Shown piece by piece: positions 18,450 through 27,648 of a stretch of DNA of 32,443 bases. The notes under the pieces are model-generated. The model searched no databases. It was not told where the DNA came from and was given only the letters and a program-made list of their open reading frames with translations. Location of the stretch: positions 1 to 32,443 of the forward strand of contig JAEPQH010000026.1 of NCBI GenBank assembly GCA_017640605.1, given 5' to 3'. The DNA is from Balneolaceae bacterium (lineage in GTDB: Bacteria > Bacteroidota > Rhodothermia > Balneolales > Balneolaceae). A program made the position numbers and the translations under genes. The number at the start of each line of letters is the position of its first letter. Positions within the stretch are counted from its first letter, which is position 1.

Positions 18450-19133
18450 ATGAATCAAGAATTAGTAAGAGAACTCACCACTTATTTAACGGATTTTATT
18501 TCTGATCAACGTTTACAAAGAATAGATGAAATTCTGGAGAAACGGACAAATTATGTAACCGTAGTACTCGAAGATTTACACAAAGCACACAATGCCAACG
18601 CTGTGCTGAGAAGTTGCGAAGGATTTGGAGTGCAAGACATTCATATCATAGAAAATGAAAATGAGTTTGACGAAGCAGGAACTGTTTCGATTGGTGCGCA
18701 TCAATGGCTTACCTTGCATCGGTACAATACACCTAAGCACGATAACCTTGGAGAATGTTTCTCGAAACTTAGAAAAGAAGGTTACAAGATTATTGCAACT
18801 ACCCCTCATGAGAAGGACTCAAATATTAATGAGCTCAATCTGGATAATAAAATCGCACTGGTTTTTGGAACAGAATTGAACGGGGTTAGTGAACACGTAA
18901 AAGAACAGGCAGATGGTTTTGTGAAAATTCCAATGTATGGATTCAGTGAGAGTTTCAATATTTCAGTGAGTGCGGCTGTTTGTTTGTATGAGTTAACAAC
19001 ACGACTTAGAAACTCAGAAAAAACAATTGCATTAGATGAAGAGTTCAAGGAAGAAATCCGATATCAATGGATAAAGCAGACTATTAAAGCCGGTGATCAG
19101 ATCGTTAATAAGTATTTATCAGAAAAGGGTTAG
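18450..19133 (+). CDS. trmH: tRNA (guanosine-2'-O-)-methyltransferase TrmH
   Basis: A SPOUT-family methyltransferase expected to methylate the 2'-hydroxyl of G18 in tRNA. The three SPOUT motifs are present: NANAVLRSCEGFGVQDIHII (48-67), with the conserved Asn and Arg; IALVFGTELNGVSE (134-147); and IPMYGFSESFNISVSAAVCL (159-178), with the SAM-binding trefoil knot. At 227 aa it is close to E. coli TrmH (229 aa) and lacks the L30e-like N-terminal extension of 23S rRNA methyltransferases of this superfamily. There is no clear ribosome binding site. The stutter tract and repeat array start at its stop codon. Confidence 0.9.
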   Translation: MNQELVRELTTYLTDFISDQRLQRIDEILEKRTNYVTVVLEDLHKAHNANAVLRSCEGFGVQDIHIIENENEFDEAGTVSIGAHQWLTLHRYNTPKHDNLGECFSKLRKEGYKIIATTPHEKDSNINELNLDNKIALVFGTELNGVSEHVKEQADGFVKIPMYGFSESFNISVSAAVCLYELTTRLRNSEKTIALDEEFKEEIRYQWIKQTIKAGDQIVNKYLSEKG

Positions 19134-19267
19134 GAGAAAGGAATAAGGAGAAAGGAATCAGGAGAAAGGAATCAGGAGGAAGGAATCAGGAGGAAGGAGA
19201 AAGGTGAGTTTTGAATTTCGAATAACGATTAACGAATATCGTACGATTGACGACCGACGAAGAATTT
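19134..19267. repeat. Stutter tract of GGAGAAAGGAATCA-type near-repeats
   Basis: Directly after the trmH stop, purine-rich near-repeats (GGAGAAAGGAATCA and GGAGGAAGGAATCA) run to about 19205, followed by TAACGATTAACGAATA-type and CGACCGACGA-type words up to the first hairpin repeat. The same words recur at 23027-23090 and 23285-23360. Non-coding. Confidence 0.8.
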
Positions 19268-19432
19268 CTGTCTGACGGCTAGCGTCAGTCTGACAGATGT
19301 GAGGAGAAAAGTTCTATTGTAGGCAATCTAATAATCACTAGCTAAAAATCCGGGAGTGAACTCCCTGCTTGTTTATGTCTACGATTTTTCCACGATCATA
19401 ATCAAGCAAAGGCTTTAGCCTAGCGATTTGAG
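19268..19432. repeat. Hairpin repeat family 1, copy A
   Basis: A module of about 165 bp. It opens with a CTGTCTGAC...GTCTGACAG hairpin (19268-19296, the most altered of the four), then GAGGAGAAAAG, AGCTAAA, a GGGAGT-GA-ACTCCC hairpin, TACGATT...CCACGATCATAA, and a GGCT-TT-AGCC hairpin flanked by CAAGCAAA and TAGCGATTTGAG. Block order is the same in copies B, C and D. Confidence 0.88.
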
Positions 19433-19546
19433 TTCTTTTAATTAGTATTTTAATGCATTTGTGGCGAAAAAAATTGTGAGAAGGTCTCTCGACAAGCTCG
19501 AGAATCAGAGCAACGGGGGGCGAATAACGAATTACGACCGATTTCT

Positions 19547-19713
19547 CTGTCTGACGGCTTGAGTCCGTCCGACAGATGTGAGGAGAAAAGCATTTTTGTA
19601 GGCAATCCAACAAATATTCGAGCTAAATACCCGGGAGTGAACTCTCTGCTTGTTTATTTCTACGATTCTTCAACGATCATAAGCAAGCAAAGGCGTTAGC
19701 CTAGCGATTTGAG
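19547..19713. repeat. Hairpin repeat family 1, copy B
   Basis: Same block order as copy A, 279 bp downstream in the same orientation. The first hairpin is CTGTCTGACGG, loop CTTGAGT, CCGTCCGACAG, with one central mismatch. The second hairpin has ACTCTC in place of ACTCCC, which a G-T pair tolerates. The 19714-19964 stretch after it holds a GTGGCGAAAA word shared with copies A and C, then TAACGAACAACGA-type stutter, then the S9 peptidase leader. Confidence 0.88.
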
Positions 19714-19964
19714 TTGAAGGTCCACCATTCCGTGTTTTCCTGCTTTTGTGGCGAAAAAGGATCAAGAGAAAGGAAAAAGCCGATTTTCGAATTACGTTTA
19801 ACGAGTAACGAACAACGAACAACGATTCCAATCAACCAAGCCCTTAAGAATCCATCCCGCGATTATGCTACTAGCATAAAATTCACTTCTTTTGCAAAGC
19901 TTCACTTTCAATGAATTTTATTTTTGAGTTACTTCTTGGCAAACTCAAAATATTTATAGCCTAC

Positions 19965-22706
19965 ATGAAATCTAGATTCGTTCTCGCTCTTGCACTTTTG
20001 GTTAGTTTCCCAACCTTATCTTTAGCACAAGGAGTGCTCACTTTCGAAGATGTGATGAAATTTGAAAACATCACTTCCTCTGATATATCCGACAATGGAA
20101 ATTGGTTGGTTTATGGTGTCTGGCCGGACAGGGGCGACGGTCATGTTATAGTGCAATCGGTAAATGGTAATCAAGAGTATCGAATCGATTTAGGCGATAA
20201 TCCTAAGATTTCCTCCAATGAACAATGGGTAGCCGCTCGAAGAAATGTGCCATTAGCCGTTCAGTTGAAGGACAAGAAAAAAGCCCCGAAACCAGGAATG
20301 AGTCTACTTTCAACATCCGATGGTACTATTGCACAATTTGATAGTGTTCGTAGCTTTGAGTTTTCGAATAATGGGGAGTGGCTCGCTTATCATCGTTTAC
20401 AAACCAAAGAGATCGAAGATTTAAAATCGAAAAATAAGCGACTCGGTTCCGAATTTGTGTTACGTGAACTTAATACCGAACAAGAGTATTCTTTCGATTT
20501 TGTGACTGGCTTCGAGTTTGATAGCCTTTCCAACTTTATTGCTTTTTCTGTGATTGATACATCGAATGCCGCCAATGGATTGTATGCTTTTGATCTTAAT
20601 GGCAAAGAAATGATAACTATTCAGCAAACAGAATCCGGATTATTTGGCAACATCACGTGGGAGCCGAAATCCTCAAAACTTGCATTTACTTCGGCATCGT
20701 ATGATTCATCCTTTCAAGAAACAGATGCAGACTTGATGCTGTGGACTTCACGCAATCAAAAACTAGAAACACTGGTATCAGCTGATGATACCGGTAATGA
20801 ATTCGTACTTCGTTCTCGAAATCGATTGACATTCACTCACGATGGCAACCGGTTGTTCTTTGGATTGATGGATAAAGACATGGTAGCACTAGATCAAAAA
20901 GAGGAGGAGAGTAAAGATGAAGAGGAAATCGATATATATGATATCGAAACCATCGTTGACGGTCGTGGATTAGATATTTGGCACGGTGATGATCCCTTAA
21001 TTAAAACGCATGAAATTCAGACATGGAATCGTCGAAAAAATCACCTTTACACTGCTGTTTATCATTTCGGACGTAGAGCAAATTGGGTGCAGTTAGCGGA
21101 TAAAACCGTGCCTGATGTAAGTATTTCGCATAATGCTAGCGTAATTTTGGGCTACAGTAATTTGCCGTATCAAGTCGAACGTACGTGGGATGGAACCTAT
21201 CGCGACTGGTATGTAATTGATTTAAAAACCGGAAATAAAAAACAATTCTTAACAAAGCTTGGTTCGTTTGTTCAACTTTCGCCGGGTGGAAAATATGCTA
21301 CGGTATATCAGGATAAGCACTGGAGGTTATATGATATAAAGAGCGATAAATTCTTAAATCTTACCGAAAGTATAGATAATCCTTTCTATAACGAAGACCA
21401 CGATTACCCAAGTGATGTGCCCGGATACGGAGTTGCGGGGTGGACAGCAAAAGATGCGTCTGTGTTGATCTACGACAAGTTTGACATCTGGAAATTTGAT
21501 ACAAAATCAGGTAATGCAACTAACATTACGGGAGGAAAGGGTAGAGCAGAAAATCGAATTTTCCGAATAGAGCACTTAGAGAATAATTGGGATGCTTTTT
21601 CAGCAAATGAAGAACTATTACTTACCTCATATCACGATTTGAATAAGAACTTCGGATTCTATTCAACGCGAATTAACGATTCTGCTGTGAAGCCGTTGTT
21701 GGAAGAAGACAAGAAATTCACCTTTGTCGAAAAGGCCGAGAATTCTGATGCTATCCTATACAAGCGCGAAGCTTATGATGAATTTCCAAACCTATGGATA
21801 GCAAGCGACCACACATTTAAAGAAGTTGATCAACACACAAACCTCCATTTGGATTTATCGGAAAAGTGGAATTGGGGAAAGGCAGAACTCGTAGATTGGC
21901 TAAGCACTGATGGCACTTACATGCAGGGAGTAGTAATAAAGCCGGATAATTACGATCCGAATAAACGCTACCCGATTATGACCTACTATTATCGATTCTT
22001 CACCAATCGTTTGCACGATTTTAACGAACCAAGAACCAATCACCGACCCGTTTTTGCACAGTATGTCAGTGATGAATATGTGGTTTTCTTACCGGATGTA
22101 CGATTTGAAATTGGTCGACCGGGTTTTGCCGCTACCAAAAGTGTGGTTCCCGGCATCCAGAAATTGGTAGAACTTGGCATTGCTGATCCGGATAAATTGG
22201 GGCTTCACGGGCATTCGTGGAGTGGATATCAAACGGCGTTTATAGTTACCCAAACCGATATTTTTGATGCAGCCGTTTCTGGTGCTCCGGTTAGTAACAT
22301 GACCAGTGCTTATGGCGGTATCCGTTGGGCTTCAGGACTCGCACGAAGTTTTCAGTACGAAAAAACGCAAAGTCGAATCGGGGAGAGCTTAGTTGAAGCT
22401 CCACTTAAATATGTTGAGAACTCTCCGGTCTTTTACGCTGATCAAATCACCACGCCCATGCTCATCCAACACGGCGATGACGATGGCGCGGTGCCTTGGT
22501 ATCAAAGTATCGAAATGTATTTAGCAATGCGTCGTTACGACAAAGATGTGATTTTCTTGCAATACCACGGCGAGCCACATCACCTGCAGCGCTTCGAAAA
22601 CAAACTAGATTATGCCATTCGCATGAAAGAATATTTCGATTACTACCTGAAAGGAGAGGGCGAACCGAAATGGATTATTTCCGGGGAAACCTATCAAGGA
22701 AGGTGA
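19965..22706 (+). CDS. Secreted S9-family (prolyl oligopeptidase-like) peptidase
   Basis: A serine peptidase of the S9 family, exported by the Sec system. The start at 19965 gives a clean signal peptide (MKSRFVLALALLVSFPTLS, cleavage after LAQ); an upstream in-frame ATG at 19911 would bury it. Residues of about 25-600 are a beta-propeller-type domain. The catalytic alpha/beta-hydrolase part has YPIMTYYYRFF, then LGLHGHSWSGYQ with nucleophile Ser751 in GHSWSG (the more usual motif is GxSxGG), Asp in QHGDDDGAVPW, and His in YHGEPHHLQ. At 913 aa it fits the large S9 proteins common in Bacteroidota-type genomes. It stands alone and is flanked on both sides by paired family 1 repeats. Confidence 0.92.
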   Translation: MKSRFVLALALLVSFPTLSLAQGVLTFEDVMKFENITSSDISDNGNWLVYGVWPDRGDGHVIVQSVNGNQEYRIDLGDNPKISSNEQWVAARRNVPLAVQLKDKKKAPKPGMSLLSTSDGTIAQFDSVRSFEFSNNGEWLAYHRLQTKEIEDLKSKNKRLGSEFVLRELNTEQEYSFDFVTGFEFDSLSNFIAFSVIDTSNAANGLYAFDLNGKEMITIQQTESGLFGNITWEPKSSKLAFTSASYDSSFQETDADLMLWTSRNQKLETLVSADDTGNEFVLRSRNRLTFTHDGNRLFFGLMDKDMVALDQKEEESKDEEEIDIYDIETIVDGRGLDIWHGDDPLIKTHEIQTWNRRKNHLYTAVYHFGRRANWVQLADKTVPDVSISHNASVILGYSNLPYQVERTWDGTYRDWYVIDLKTGNKKQFLTKLGSFVQLSPGGKYATVYQDKHWRLYDIKSDKFLNLTESIDNPFYNEDHDYPSDVPGYGVAGWTAKDASVLIYDKFDIWKFDTKSGNATNITGGKGRAENRIFRIEHLENNWDAFSANEELLLTSYHDLNKNFGFYSTRINDSAVKPLLEEDKKFTFVEKAENSDAILYKREAYDEFPNLWIASDHTFKEVDQHTNLHLDLSEKWNWGKAELVDWLSTDGTYMQGVVIKPDNYDPNKRYPIMTYYYRFFTNRLHDFNEPRTNHRPVFAQYVSDEYVVFLPDVRFEIGRPGFAATKSVVPGIQKLVELGIADPDKLGLHGHSWSGYQTAFIVTQTDIFDAAVSGAPVSNMTSAYGGIRWASGLARSFQYEKTQSRIGESLVEAPLKYVENSPVFYADQITTPMLIQHGDDDGAVPWYQSIEMYLAMRRYDKDVIFLQYHGEPHHLQRFENKLDYAIRMKEYFDYYLKGEGEPKWIISGETYQGR

Positions 22707-22796
22707 GGATCAATATTCAATAAGCAATAAGGAATATACAGTGAACATTGTTTGTTGACGAGTGACGAATTATGGCCGACGAACGACGAAGGATTT

Positions 22797-22963
22797 CTGT
22801 CAGACGGCTTGAGCCCGTCTGACAGATGTTTGAGGTGAATAACTTTACTCTAGGCAATCCAATAAAACTTGAGCTAAATACCCGGGAGTGTACTCCCTAC
22901 TTGCTTATGGTTTTGGTTCTTCCACGATCATATCCAAGCAAAGGCTTTAGCCTTAGCGAATTG
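22797..22963. repeat. Hairpin repeat family 1, copy C
   Basis: The first hairpin, CTGTCAGACGG / CCGTCTGACAG, is perfectly paired here over 11 bp, whereas copies B and D keep a central mismatch. Second hairpin GGGAGT-GT-ACTCCC; third AAGGCT-TT-AGCCTT. Same orientation as the other copies. The 22707-22796 lead-in is TGACGAGTGACGA-type stutter. Confidence 0.88.
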
Positions 22964-23096
22964 GTTAGTGACGATTGTGTGTTTTTGTAGCGAAAATAAA
23001 TCATTAGATAGGATTTCTCGATAAACTCTAGAATCAGGAAAAAGGAAATAGGAGAAAGGATCAAGGACGTACGACGAACGAGTTTTCTGTCTGACG

Positions 23097-23250
23097 GCTT
23101 GAGTCCGTCTGACAGATTTTGAGGTGATAAGCTTATACGTGGCAATTCTCCAAACTCGAGCTTAATACCCGGGAGTGAACTCCCTACTTGCTTATGGTTT
23201 TGGTTCTTCCACGATCATAAGCAAGAAAAGGCTTCAGCCTTAGCGATATG
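23097..23250. repeat. Hairpin repeat family 1, copy D
   Basis: First hairpin CTGTCTGACGG, loop CTTGAGT, CCGTCTGACAG, with a central T-T mismatch. Second hairpin GGGAGT-GA-ACTCCC. It lies 300 bp after copy C. The following 23251-23372 stretch is GGAATCAGGAGAAAGG and TAACGATTAACGACTAACGA stutter up to the permease stop codon. Confidence 0.87.
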
Positions 23251-23372
23251 TTTTCGACTATAGCGTGCTTTCGATTCGATAATAGCAACGACAAAGGAAT
23301 CAGGAGAAAGGATCAAGGAGATGTTCGAATAACGATTAACGACTAACGAATAACAATCTACAATTAACCAAA

Positions 23373-25406
23373 TCACTCCTCAACTTCAGTAAAAATATCA
23401 TTCACCTCTTGAATGGCTTCGTTGGTACCAACAAACACCACATGATCTTCGGCCATGATCTCGGTTTTACCTCTGGGCACTACAAATTCTTTATTTCGGA
23501 TCAACGCTGCCACAACACACTCCTGCGGAATGTTGATCTTTTCAATCACCTTACCAACTACTTTGGCTTTAGCCGGCACTTTCATGTCGATTAAGCTTGC
23601 CACGCCATTTTCAATTTCGAATAGATCGGCCACACCAGGACGATCCAGATAATTTTCAACCATCGAAGCAGTTGCCAGCGGGGCACTGATGCATATAATG
23701 CCGTTATCCTCAAGCAACGAGATGTAGGAGGGATCCCGCGCAATCGCAATCACCCGTTTAACGCCCAAACGCTTGGCTTGTAGCGCCATGATGGAATTAC
23801 GTTCGTCATCATTAGTAGCTGCGATAGCTACATCCATTTTACGCGGTTCAACCTGTTCCAGGAGCTCCTGCTTGGTGCCATCACCTGTAAAAACCGGCAC
23901 ATTATAGCGTTCACCCAGCTGTTCGCTTCGCTCTTTATCTTTTTCGATAAAGGTGATCTGATATACCGACGAACGAAATACCATTCGGAATTCATCTTGT
24001 TTCATCAGGCGATCGGCAATATTGCCTCCTAAGTTTCCGCCTCCAATTATTAACACGTTCATTCGTGGCCTCCAGTAAGATTGTAGTTTAATTTTAATGC
24101 GTTCCAGATATTCCGGTAGTCGATCCAATACCTTGCGATTGTTGGGGATCAGGAAGTAGAGTACGATTCCAACAAGGGTTAATCCGAGTCCCAGAATCAG
24201 ACTTTGTGGATCAAGCATGGGGACAAAGAACCAGCAGGAAATAATCCCTAAAATGGGAATAAATGGATATAAAATGATTTTATAGGGTCGCCGAAGATTC
24301 GGCATATTCCGATGCAGCGCGATTACCGTATAATTCACGATACCAATTGCAATCAGATAGCCAAAACTACTGGCTGATGCAAGCACCCGAACCACACCGG
24401 ATGCCCCAAGCACGGCAACCAAGGCTGCACAAACGAATAACGCAATATGTGGGGTTTTAAATTTGGTATGAAGTCGCGCAAAGACCTCCGGAAAGTGTCC
24501 ATCTCGACCCAAAGCAAACAGCACCCGCGAACTTGCTCCCAGAGTTACGCTAAATGCAGATAAACTTGCCATTATCGTGGCGATAATTCCCGCCCAGCGA
24601 CCCCAATCCCCAAATAGTAAATCAGCAACATAAATAAACGGCGTGCTTGTATTGGCCAATTCGGTATAATTAACCACGCCCATCATCACCCAAAGCAGCA
24701 ATACATAAATAACCATTCCCACCAAAAGTGTGATTAAAATGGCCCGGGGAATATTTTTTGCTGGATCAACGATTTCCTCGGCGGCAACGGTGATCAGATC
24801 GAATCCTACATACGAAATATAAATGAGGCCCATGGTTGGTATAAGCGGTCCCCAGCCGTAAGGAGCTATGGGATCGAGATTGGCCGGTTCCACATAAAAA
24901 GCGCCTAAAAGTCCTACGCCAACCAACACAATCAATTCTACGATGTTCATGATGGTGATTACAACCAGTGCTTCAGCTTGACCTCGTAAATTCGTGAGCG
25001 TAAAAAACACAGTAGTGATAAGTACGATTGCAATGACACTAATCTCGGGGAAGAAATAATTTTTGATGGTATAAGCAAAAATCACCACGTAAAGCGAACA
25101 GGCCAACGTGTTTCCGATCCAGAAAAACCAACCGGTTAAAAAAGCAACGGGGCGGGGCAGGGTGCGACTGGTAAACGAATATCCACCGCCCGCAATGGGC
25201 AAGGCTGCTCCGAGTTCGCTGTAGCTAAGTGCGGTAAATAAAGTGAGCAATCCCATCGCCAGGTAAGCGATGATTCCAAGCGGTCCGGCCGACTCTGCCA
25301 CTAAACTGGGCAGCGCGAAAATACCGGGCCCCATCATGGCTCCGATACCAATCATCACGGCCATAAACAGACCAATATTTCGTTTAAATCCGGATTGCTC
25401 CGCCAT
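23373..25406 (-). CDS. APC-family amino acid permease fused to a TrkA/RCK regulatory domain
   Basis: An integral membrane amino-acid/polyamine/organocation transporter. Residues 1 to about 435 hold twelve hydrophobic segments with the APC marks GIGAMMGPGIFALPSL (17-32), SYSELGAALPIAGGGYSF and a later ASSRVLFALGRDGHFPEVFA. From residue 449 a cytoplasmic TrkA-N domain starts (MNVLIIGGGNLGGNIADRL, with the NAD-binding GGGNLGG), followed by VFTGDGTKQELLEQ and a TrkA-C/RCK tail (VVGKVIEKINIPQECVVAAL, VFVGTNEAIQEVNDIF). RCK domains usually gate K+ transporters in response to NAD(H), ATP or ions; here one is fused to an amino-acid permease, which suggests ligand-gated transport. The substrate is unknown. 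No partner gene adjoins it. Confidence 0.9.
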   Translation of the reverse strand: MAEQSGFKRNIGLFMAVMIGIGAMMGPGIFALPSLVAESAGPLGIIAYLAMGLLTLFTALSYSELGAALPIAGGGYSFTSRTLPRPVAFLTGWFFWIGNTLACSLYVVIFAYTIKNYFFPEISVIAIVLITTVFFTLTNLRGQAEALVVITIMNIVELIVLVGVGLLGAFYVEPANLDPIAPYGWGPLIPTMGLIYISYVGFDLITVAAEEIVDPAKNIPRAILITLLVGMVIYVLLLWVMMGVVNYTELANTSTPFIYVADLLFGDWGRWAGIIATIMASLSAFSVTLGASSRVLFALGRDGHFPEVFARLHTKFKTPHIALFVCAALVAVLGASGVVRVLASASSFGYLIAIGIVNYTVIALHRNMPNLRRPYKIILYPFIPILGIISCWFFVPMLDPQSLILGLGLTLVGIVLYFLIPNNRKVLDRLPEYLERIKIKLQSYWRPRMNVLIIGGGNLGGNIADRLMKQDEFRMVFRSSVYQITFIEKDKERSEQLGERYNVPVFTGDGTKQELLEQVEPRKMDVAIAATNDDERNSIMALQAKRLGVKRVIAIARDPSYISLLEDNGIICISAPLATASMVENYLDRPGVADLFEIENGVASLIDMKVPAKAKVVGKVIEKINIPQECVVAALIRNKEFVVPRGKTEIMAEDHVVFVGTNEAIQEVNDIFTEVEE

Positions 25407-26017: not shown

Positions 26018-27648
26018 CAGCCTGTGTAAAAACTCTAGATTTGTTTTTTGGGGATTTTCAGAAGTATTAGCCCGTAAGAATTGAACGCTGACTTAAATAC
26101 CCCTGTATTTTTTGTTGAATAGGTGTAGCCATCATTACGGCCTCAATCAACCCTTTACTACCCACGATAGTTAGCATTCTCTTAAGGTTATAAGTGAGCA
26201 CACTCAAACTCATCTCTGTAGATACATGTTCCAAGCCTTTGCTTAAAAAGTATCCATGCCCCATGGTACGTTTTAATGTGCCAAACGGATGTTCAGCAAG
26301 TTGAGCTCGCAGCGCCATCTTTTCCGGATGGGCCTTTAGCCGGGCTTTCACAGCATCTATGACCTGGGAATACTTCCAACGGTGCATACGCCGATTTCCT
26401 CGTTTGGCTCGGGTACAATGTGGGCGTAGGTGACAGCGCTGACACGCAGAAGTTTCATAAAAACGGGTTTGTTTTCCGTGTTTTGTAGCCGTGAAGTTAT
26501 ACCGCAGATACTGCCCGGCCGGACATAGGAAACTATCGCGGGCGGAGTCATAGACAAAGGCACTCTTGGGGTACATTCCGGGGGCTTGCCCACCGTTTAC
26601 TTTTGCCGCAGGTACATAGCACGAGGCGCCCATGCGCTCACAAGCCACAATCTGCTGCTCATTATAATAGCCTTTGTCCGCTACGACTTCTATAGAGTCT
26701 ACGCCTAACACCTTCTTAGCCTGACGCGTCATTGGTAAGAGTTGATGTAGGTCGGTATGCTCGGAGGTGACGTGGTGCGCAACGATCAATTTGTGTTTGC
26801 TATCAACGGCAATTTGCACATTGTAGCATACATCTCGCCCTTTATGTCCAGTGCGCATCGTGCGACTGTCTGGGTCCGTCAAGGAGCCTCCGGGCAGCTC
26901 CTCATCGTGCATACGATCTCGCAGGGCTTCTAATTCGCTTTTTTGCGCCTGCAGAGCTTTAATTTTCTCCCCCATAGAATCCTCTGCTTGCATGGCGAGC
27001 TCTTCTTCGTCCGCTCGATCCATCTGCCCAAGCCACTCAGCCAGTTGCTCATTAAGCTCGCTGATGGCTTGTTCGATGCTTTTGCGAGAGTAACTGCGTG
27101 AGGAATGATTTACGGCCTCAAACTTACTGCCATCAATGGCAATAAGTTGTCCACCAAATACGCCCATGCGTTTACATAAGAGTATAAACTCCACACATAC
27201 AGCCTGTAATGGCTTCGTATTGTCTTTGCGGAAATTAGCAATGGTTTTAAAGTCTGGCTGCAATTTACCCAGTAACCACATGAGTTCAAGGTTGCGCCGA
27301 GTTTCGCGTTCAAGAACCCGGCTACTACGTAGCCCGTGCAAATACCCATATACATACAACTTAAGTAGGTCTTCGGCTCGATAGGGAGGGCGGCCTGTGG
27401 AAGCCAGTTGAGTATGAGTAAAGCCCAGTTCATATAGGTTCAAACTCTCGATATAGGCATCAATAAAACGAACAGTGTGCTCCGCATCGATGTAATCATC
27501 AAGGACTTCAGGAAAGAGCGTTGCCTGTGAACGATTCGCAGGTCGAATGTAATCCATATGCAGTACAATTTGGTTACACTACATTAATAATCAATTACTT
27601 ATATAGCAAATTAATAACGCATTAATCCCTTAATTTTTACACAGGCTG
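26018..27648 (-). mobile_element. IS1182-family insertion sequence, complete
   Basis: The ends carry a perfect 15-bp inverted repeat, CAGCCTGTGTAAAAA (26018-26032) and TTTTTACACAGGCTG (27634-27648), giving a 1,631-bp element around one transposase gene. The flanks are ACCAGT (26012-26017) and ACCGGT (27649-27654), a 6-bp target duplication with one difference. Beyond them lie TCACGA and TCGTGA, so the empty site was the palindrome TCACGAACCGGTTCGTGA. Both ends and the ORF are intact, so it may be active. Confidence 0.85.
26067..27557 (-). CDS. IS1182-family transposase
   Basis: A 496-aa DDE transposase. The N-terminal DUF772-type region reads ATLFPEVLDDYIDAEHTVRF, then GRPPYRAEDLLKLYVYGYL and SRVLERETRRNLELMWLLG. 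The catalytic core has Asp in LIAIDGSKFEAVNH, Asp in VVADKGYYNEQQI, and Glu in AEHPFGTLKRTMGHGYFL, the DDE triad. A cysteine-containing insert (CPAGQYLRY, then ACQRCHLRPHCTRAKRGNRRM) is usual for IS1182 proteins. The frame is uninterrupted. It catalyses excision and insertion of the surrounding element. Confidence 0.95.
   Translation of the reverse strand: MDYIRPANRSQATLFPEVLDDYIDAEHTVRFIDAYIESLNLYELGFTHTQLASTGRPPYRAEDLLKLYVYGYLHGLRSSRVLERETRRNLELMWLLGKLQPDFKTIANFRKDNTKPLQAVCVEFILLCKRMGVFGGQLIAIDGSKFEAVNHSSRSYSRKSIEQAISELNEQLAEWLGQMDRADEEELAMQAEDSMGEKIKALQAQKSELEALRDRMHDEELPGGSLTDPDSRTMRTGHKGRDVCYNVQIAVDSKHKLIVAHHVTSEHTDLHQLLPMTRQAKKVLGVDSIEVVADKGYYNEQQIVACERMGASCYVPAAKVNGGQAPGMYPKSAFVYDSARDSFLCPAGQYLRYNFTATKHGKQTRFYETSACQRCHLRPHCTRAKRGNRRMHRWKYSQVIDAVKARLKAHPEKMALRAQLAEHPFGTLKRTMGHGYFLSKGLEHVSTEMSLSVLTYNLKRMLTIVGSKGLIEAVMMATPIQQKIQGYLSQRSILTG

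Follow-up and report, generated by a model that had tools for sequence, protein, structure and literature searches.

What kind of element are the four repeats that bracket the gene of an S9 peptidase in the genome of a Balneolaceae bacterium, and how did they come to be there? The DNA analysed, hereafter the window, is contig JAEPQH010000026.1 (contig C23 in our numbering) at its full length of 32,443 nucleotides, and belongs to a 3.74-Mb genome of 34 contigs (assembly GCA_017640605.1). In the preliminary description of the window, each repeat was taken for a module of three hairpins, whose constant layout suggested a structured unit, and was compared with repetitive extragenic palindromic (REP) sequences and bacterial interspersed mosaic elements (BIMEs) moved by REP-associated tyrosine transposases (RAYTs). 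We find that each copy consists of a REP doublet forming a hairpin (REPIN) of ~70 bp and a separate palindrome of 31 bp (palindrome A). The REPINs of the window are probably non-autonomous mobile elements, with a 142-residue HuH/Y1 transposase encoded on contig C10 as the likely mobilising enzyme, in an arrangement that is common in subclass 1.2 of the TnpAY1 transposases.

A repeat search located the four copies, all on the + strand and two on either side of the open reading frame (ORF) of the S9 peptidase, at 19267-19422, 19546-19703, 22796-22954 and 23086-23241. With copy 2 as query, a whole-genome search returned the other three at E values of 2e-52, 2e-37 and 7e-36 (81-86% identity), together with weaker and shorter matches on contigs C31, C10, C7 and C26. 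Both searches confirm the arrangement of four same-orientation copies around the peptidase. The first hairpins start at 19267, 19546, 22796 and 23086; the spacing given previously for the upstream pair, 279 bp, is borne out, and that of the downstream pair measures 290 bp instead of 300 bp. The features are as follows, where R1 denotes a covariance model built from the aligned units.

19267 to 19297, + strand: palindrome A of copy 1, 31 bp (hairpin 'A'; pattern search and DNA folding)
19352 to 19422, + strand: REPIN of copy 1, with left hairpin GGGAGTGAACTCCC and tail TGCTTGTTTATG, then right tail CATAATCAAGCA and right hairpin (R1 match 19342-19426, E 9.0e-11)
19546 to 19576, + strand: palindrome A of copy 2 (pattern search)
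19633 to 19703, + strand: REPIN of copy 2 (R1 match 19623-19707, E 1.6e-8)
19911 to 22706, + strand: S9 peptidase gene, between the copy pairs and outside the element (Pfam Peptidase_S9, 78 bits)
22796 to 22826, + strand: palindrome A of copy 3, the fully paired form (DNA folding)
22884 to 22954, + strand: REPIN of copy 3 (R1 match 22874-22958, E 5.1e-11)
23086 to 23116, + strand: palindrome A of copy 4 (DNA folding)
23171 to 23241, + strand: REPIN of copy 4 (R1 match 23161-23245, E 2.5e-13)

The REPIN corresponds to the second and third hairpins of the module and has the layout GGGAGTGAACTCCC-TGCTTGTTTATG ... CATAAGCAAGCA-AAGGCTTTAGCCTT. Because the tail TGCTTGYTTATGAT is common to the left end and the reverse-complemented right end, the unit consists of two hairpins in inverted orientation, which is the layout of REPINs and BIMEs. 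DNA folding pairs both end hairpins and also the tails: the tail after hairpin 2 forms 12 pairs with the tail before hairpin 3, a helix that had been overlooked.

Base pairing was assessed in an alignment of 23 units, of which four are from the window, four from C31, five from C10, two from the transposase gene, and five, one and two from the related loci L095, L093 and L065, respectively. Paired cells amount to 90.3%, and to at most 48.8% in slid versions of the structure, a control biased in favour of the structure, which was chosen from the same 23 sequences. Changes on both sides of a pair occupy 31 cells, against 12.8 in shuffles, and none of 500 shuffles reached as high a count; compensated changes, whose absence the preliminary description had named as refuting, are thus present. 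They fall mostly within the end hairpins. In the tail helix it is the sequence that is conserved: 3 of the 12 pairs show two-sided changes, and six depart solely through unpaired cells. Inspected by eye, the 23 alignment rows show no GT[AG]G at a distance of 0-2 nt from the hairpin's 5' foot at either end.

An alternative is a three-hairpin structured RNA or regulatory element, retained for the sake of its transcript and copied on either side of the peptidase gene. In its favour are the two-sided changes in the end hairpins and the folding of the REPIN parts in copies 1 and 4, which is more stable than that of shuffles (z -3.2 and -5.1). We regard this explanation as very improbable. An Rfam search of window positions 19100-23400 gave no family up to E = 1, and the tail-to-tail distance ranges from 19 to 84 nt in this genome's copies. 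Near-symmetry of the unit, and matches to the covariance model on both strands for many copies, are what inverted DNA ends would produce. Moreover, hairpin 1 occurs elsewhere independently of the other two.

Hairpin 1 is palindrome A, TCTGTCNGACGG(7)CCGTCNGACAGA, with CCGTC inside its stem. In copy 3 it has a perfect pair (TCTGTC-A-GACGG; -12.7 kcal/mol), and in copy 4 TCTGTC-T-GACGG faces CCGTC-T-GACAGA with a T-T mismatch (-10.2 kcal/mol). The statement that the hairpins stay paired while single bases vary is correct for this difference, but not for copy 1, in which CAGTC replaces CCGTC and the hairpin re-folds in a different register at -8.0 kcal/mol. Palindrome A was found, with at most two mismatches, in 6 of 92 genomes of the family. 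This genome holds three on C7 besides the window copies; in relatives it is solitary, often in the form TCGGTC...GACCGA, which is a two-sided change. No REPIN stands beside it at loci outside the window within the flanks inspected; a tail word with one mismatch occurs at two of these loci (L175 at 937 and L176 at 324), and the genomes concerned (G021 and G022) have no R1 match. The combination of palindrome A and REPIN was seen only in the window: the C31 array of REPINs has a different neighbour and the C10 array none of that kind. Because palindrome A is solitary elsewhere and the other arrays lack it, the three-hairpin module is a REPIN with a local neighbour, duplicated together, and the idea that its constant layout marks a structured unit is not supported. 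Palindrome A as part of the mobile unit was likewise rejected, given its solitary occurrence and its absence from all 110 transposase homologue loci (L063-L172). The three copies on C7 (L027 5720-7430, minus strand) are each followed by GAACCGGTGGTTC-like and CCGAACAAGTTGTTCGG-like hairpins and form a three-hairpin repeat of their own.

The genome-wide search with R1, which the preliminary description had suggested as a check, did reveal further copies. With 40 candidates scored per genome, copy counts are lower bounds; 22 matches, three of them on the opposite strand of places already counted, give at least 19 places. These are a tandem array of five (C10:225516-226540), a tandem array of four (C31:15471-16153), the four in the window, three at the transposase gene and one each on C1, C21 and C26, so that at least 16 of the at least 19 places lie outside the transposase gene. 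The exact tail CTTGYTTATGAT occurs at 15 sites in 3.7 Mb: eight in the C10 array, two at the transposase gene, two in the window, two on C31 and one in an apparent coding region. The last site (C27:78147) has no hairpin and was counted as chance. Two further observations concern the arrays. The C31 array (L025 5440-6161, equal to C31:15439-16160) has a tandem period of ~199 bp, and its REPINs have in front of them a CGTC-ATCCCGCAGCGAAAGCCGGGAT palindrome similar in appearance to the CGTC-tagged REPs described by Di Nocera et al. (2013; PMC3733652). On C21, L250 739-1365 contains four direct copies ~199 bp apart of a left-end REP resembling GCAGGACTAAAGTCCCTGCTTGGTTATGA, without a clear right end.

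Could plain local segmental duplication beside one gene, with no mobility, account for the repeats? Likeness is indeed highest within the pairs (REPIN-part identity of 90.5% for copies 1 and 2 and 92.9% for copies 3 and 4, against 78.6-79.8% between pairs), neighbouring material is shared, and the remaining clusters are tandem as well. However, what is found again at the transposase gene and on further contigs is the REPIN part and not the adjoining palindrome, and identity to the C31 copies is higher for copies 3 and 4 (79.8-85.7%) than for copies 1 and 2 (66.7-75.0%). We therefore consider local duplication unlikely as a full explanation and favour mobile REPINs.

The candidate for the cognate enzyme is one of five Pfam Y1_Tnp matches in the genome. 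The gene at C10:339074-339499 encodes a HuH/Y1 protein of 142 residues (Y1_Tnp, 90.7 bits). Upstream of it, GGGACTAAAGTCCC or AGGACTAAAGTCCA followed by TGCTTGTTTATGA occurs twice; downstream this occurs once, with a right-end hairpin beyond. The other two full-length Y1 enzymes of this genome (on C7 and C14) are flanked by different hairpins. Homologues with 69-74% identity in three relatives (G035/L093, G033/L065 and G032/L095) adjoin units of a hairpin and a CTTGYTTATG-like tail. In L065, units with the same tail lie on both sides of the gene. L095, a Balneolaceae metagenome-assembled genome among the named relatives of the transposase, has five tandem units around the gene, the frame of which is broken, with 90 residues read; the break (L095 3001-3424) lies near a run of A in a metagenome assembly and could be an assembly error. 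In the tree, from which the broken L095 protein was left out, three of the four same-tail transposases form one clade (98/91). Since the REPIN recurs in the genome, with two-sided changes, and same-tail units flank a Y1 transposase gene, the earlier comparison with REP/BIME elements moved by RAYTs was right in kind, and the proposed search for RAYT genes has yielded a RAYT-like candidate.

The motifs of the enzyme (DHVH, WQ and YIYNQEKHH) agree with the motifs of TnpAY1 subclass 1.2, DH[IV]H, WQ and Y---Q--HH, and by these motifs it is assigned to that subclass. Quentin et al. (2018; PMC6006769, with Table 1) give DH[IV]H, WQ and YIKNQKEHH for subclass 1.2, place it in Cyanobacteria and Bacteroidetes, enter 'no' for REP, and describe the subclass as 'generally without typical terminal IS200 secondary structure features'. 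The automatic REP search of that study required a GTAG or GTGG foot. A literature search found no paper linking subclass 1.2 to REPs.

We compared the flanks of 113 loci encoding different proteins, taken from the family and from named loci with at least 200 nt on either side. These loci were collected by their similarity to a single query, with Flavobacterium and Dyadobacter strongly represented and Cyanobacteria outside the sample. The signature Y---Q is present in 110 of the 113 and Y---Q--HH in 100, and the Y---NP motif of class 2 in none of the 113. An inverted repeat between the flanks with a score of at least 16 was detected at 53/113 loci, compared to 5.3% in a control with mispaired flanks, and a direct repeat at the same threshold at 70/113, compared to 5.8%. 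Hairpins with a stem of at least 7 lie within 300 nt at 85/113 loci, and at 1000-1300 nt at 6 of the 92 with enough sequence. As the distal stretch is largely coding, a second control was restricted to stretches outside long ORFs; there, hairpins number 4.09 per kb within 400 nt and 1.34 per kb beyond 600 nt. After the 100 Y---Q--HH loci had been reduced to 66 non-redundant ones (80% identity), a repeat common to both flanks with a score of at least 20 was present in 43/66, compared to 6/396 in mispaired controls. The published description of subclass 1.2 as lacking REPs and IS200-type terminal structures does not hold in this sample.

Dispersal beyond the enzyme gene was examined in Flavobacterium. 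The unit CTGGACTNNAGTCCAGNCCTACAA (at most one mismatch) has 36, 23, 17, 17 and 31 sites in the genomes of L126, L153, L109, L107 and L130, respectively, whereas a reversed control pattern has none; two genomes with different flanking hairpins (L163 and L110) have no CTGGACTNNAGTCCAGNCCTACAA site either. Among 56 pairs of neighbouring sites at most 200 nt apart, the tails point inward in 40, outward in 6 and in the same direction in 10. This arrangement of hairpin and tail, with a different tail, is thus dispersed through these five genomes. In L126 and L153, the REPINs in the 300-nt stretches that flank the transposase gene have one or two extra hairpins (AGAGCCGATGGCTCT, GTTCCGGAGGAAC) between their inward-facing ends. 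We think it probable, though with less assurance than for the window itself, that subclass 1.2 constitutes a large and so far overlooked group of REP-associated transposases: its genes in Bacteroidota and neighbouring phyla would sit in REPIN arrays, a subclade-specific 3' tail would replace the 5' GTAG foot, and many of the short palindromic intergenic repeats there would be its products.

By analogy with IS200 and TnpA-REP enzymes, we hypothesize that in a single-stranded REPIN the pairing of the tails presents both end hairpins, that the enzyme recognises hairpin and tail in the single-stranded DNA, that its HuH/Tyr site cuts and rejoins the DNA, and that the units may in this way be spread in trans. 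Clusters would grow by local tandem duplication that includes adjoining material, which in the window is palindrome A; units within a cluster share their neighbours, which suggests this step.

Several observations weigh against mobile REPINs with this cognate enzyme. At least 19 places is low for a REP family, as REPIN/BIME families usually exceed 100 copies per genome (PMC2817692). In the 23-unit alignment, further pair types are not in excess of shuffles, 310 of 500 of which reach as high a count, and L093 has a clear unit on one side of the gene only. Counted in favour are the R1 matches, which occur in 12 of the 92 family genomes and were absent from 80, at 40 candidates scored in each; four of the twelve (this genome, G032, G033 and G035), however, gave units to the model and match by construction. 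All of the remaining eight (G001, G002, G004, G005, G006, G007, G025 and G039) have a transposase homologue at E<=1e-10 except G006, with weak R1 matches (best 47.5 bits). G003 and G008, of the same genus, have neither an R1 match nor a homologue. Over the 92 genomes, the presence of a homologue (E<=1e-30) and that of REPINs are associated (Fisher p = 4.8e-7); we give this little weight, since genomes within a genus are not independent of each other and other tails prevail among the enzymes of the eight-genome genus g2. The g2 transposases examined are in fact flanked mainly by such tails. In G002 and G007 a single REP close to the gene bears the related tail CTAGCTTATG and is the only unit of this kind. 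The cognate enzyme of the g2 REPINs is therefore uncertain.

An empty-site comparison in g2 covered one REPIN locus and 20 fetched copies, one of which (L274) had no match to the orienting pattern. A unit of ~90 bp recurs in five g2 genomes, mostly at 93-100% identity, but the best REPIN copies are embedded in longer repeats with flanks common to several copies (L263-L282), so that insertion boundaries are unreadable there. At the locus compared, G005 has half an element, and this test showed neither a clean empty site nor a transposition event. At the peptidase locus, the sister genome G032 has one REPIN downstream of the S9 gene, in opposite orientation and with different flanks, and the comparison of orthologous sites is thus not clean either.

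The peptidase gene itself is probably a bystander. The suggestion that the flanking arrays could delete or amplify it is not supported: upstream and downstream copies share no exact match longer than 24 nt, and wherever the gene has a match, in 53 of 92 family genomes, it is present in exactly one copy. All four repeat copies are intergenic, and two lie between the convergent ends of the peptidase and a permease gene, which could suit a use by the host as terminators or messenger RNA stabilisers at gene ends, as hypothesised for REPs by Di Nocera et al. (2013; PMC3733652). By eye, however, no T run follows the hairpins, and neither flank of the peptidase ortholog in G038 carries a REPIN. We hold such a use to be rather doubtful; it would concern function and not origin, and is compatible with mobile REPINs.

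Two other features of the window were noted. The stutter words reported around the repeats are present as a 14-bp tandem of GGAATCAGGAGAAA at about 19127-19227; a two-unit GGAATCAGGAGAAA pattern with at most 3 mismatches gave three overlapping matches, all at this tandem and none elsewhere in the genome, and the C10 array holds shorter words that resemble it. A DDE transposase gene (26067-27557; DDE_Tnp_1_6, DUF772) lies ~3 kb from the repeats, and no tie to them was seen.

With this finding, an enzyme subclass hitherto described without a partner acquires one. The finding also offers a rule for assigning intergenic repeats of Bacteroidota to enzymes: a hairpin with a 3' tail, inward-facing pairs, and a tail that recurs at the enzyme gene. 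Pairs of enzyme and repeat in which the tails differ between close relatives make recognition testable.

Compared with known systems, the window feature is of the REPIN kind. What is new is that the REPINs belong to a subclass on record without them, and that the tag is on the other side of the hairpin. As in REPINs and BIMEs with a class 2 TnpA-REP (RAYT), REP hairpins are inverted and clustered in tandem, one cognate Y1 gene is flanked by them, and further copies are intergenic. In contrast to class 2 REPs, those of the window lack the GT[AG]G 5' foot and carry as conserved tag a long tail on the 3' side, which differs by enzyme subclade; they also occupy at least 19 places instead of more than 100, and the enzyme has Y---Q--HH, not Y---NP. 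With subclass 1.2 as characterised by Quentin et al. (2018; PMC6006769), the system shares DH[IV]H, WQ, Y---Q--HH, a length of about 148 residues and occurrence in Bacteroidetes, but contrary to the 'REP: no' entry of that study hairpin repeats flank the gene on both sides at most of the loci sampled. IS200/IS605 elements (subclass 1.1) likewise combine a HuH/Y1 enzyme with hairpins at both ends, whereas the window repeats carry no gene, their end tails pair over 12 positions, and the Y motif of the enzyme is that of 1.2 and not 1.1. Finally, the CGTC-tagged REPs reported by Di Nocera et al. (2013; PMC3733652) are short palindromes without a transposase of their own, known from Bacteroidetes, and the C31-array units similarly have CGTC followed by an ATCCCG...CGGGAT hairpin; this likeness concerns the neighbours of the REPIN and not the REPIN itself.

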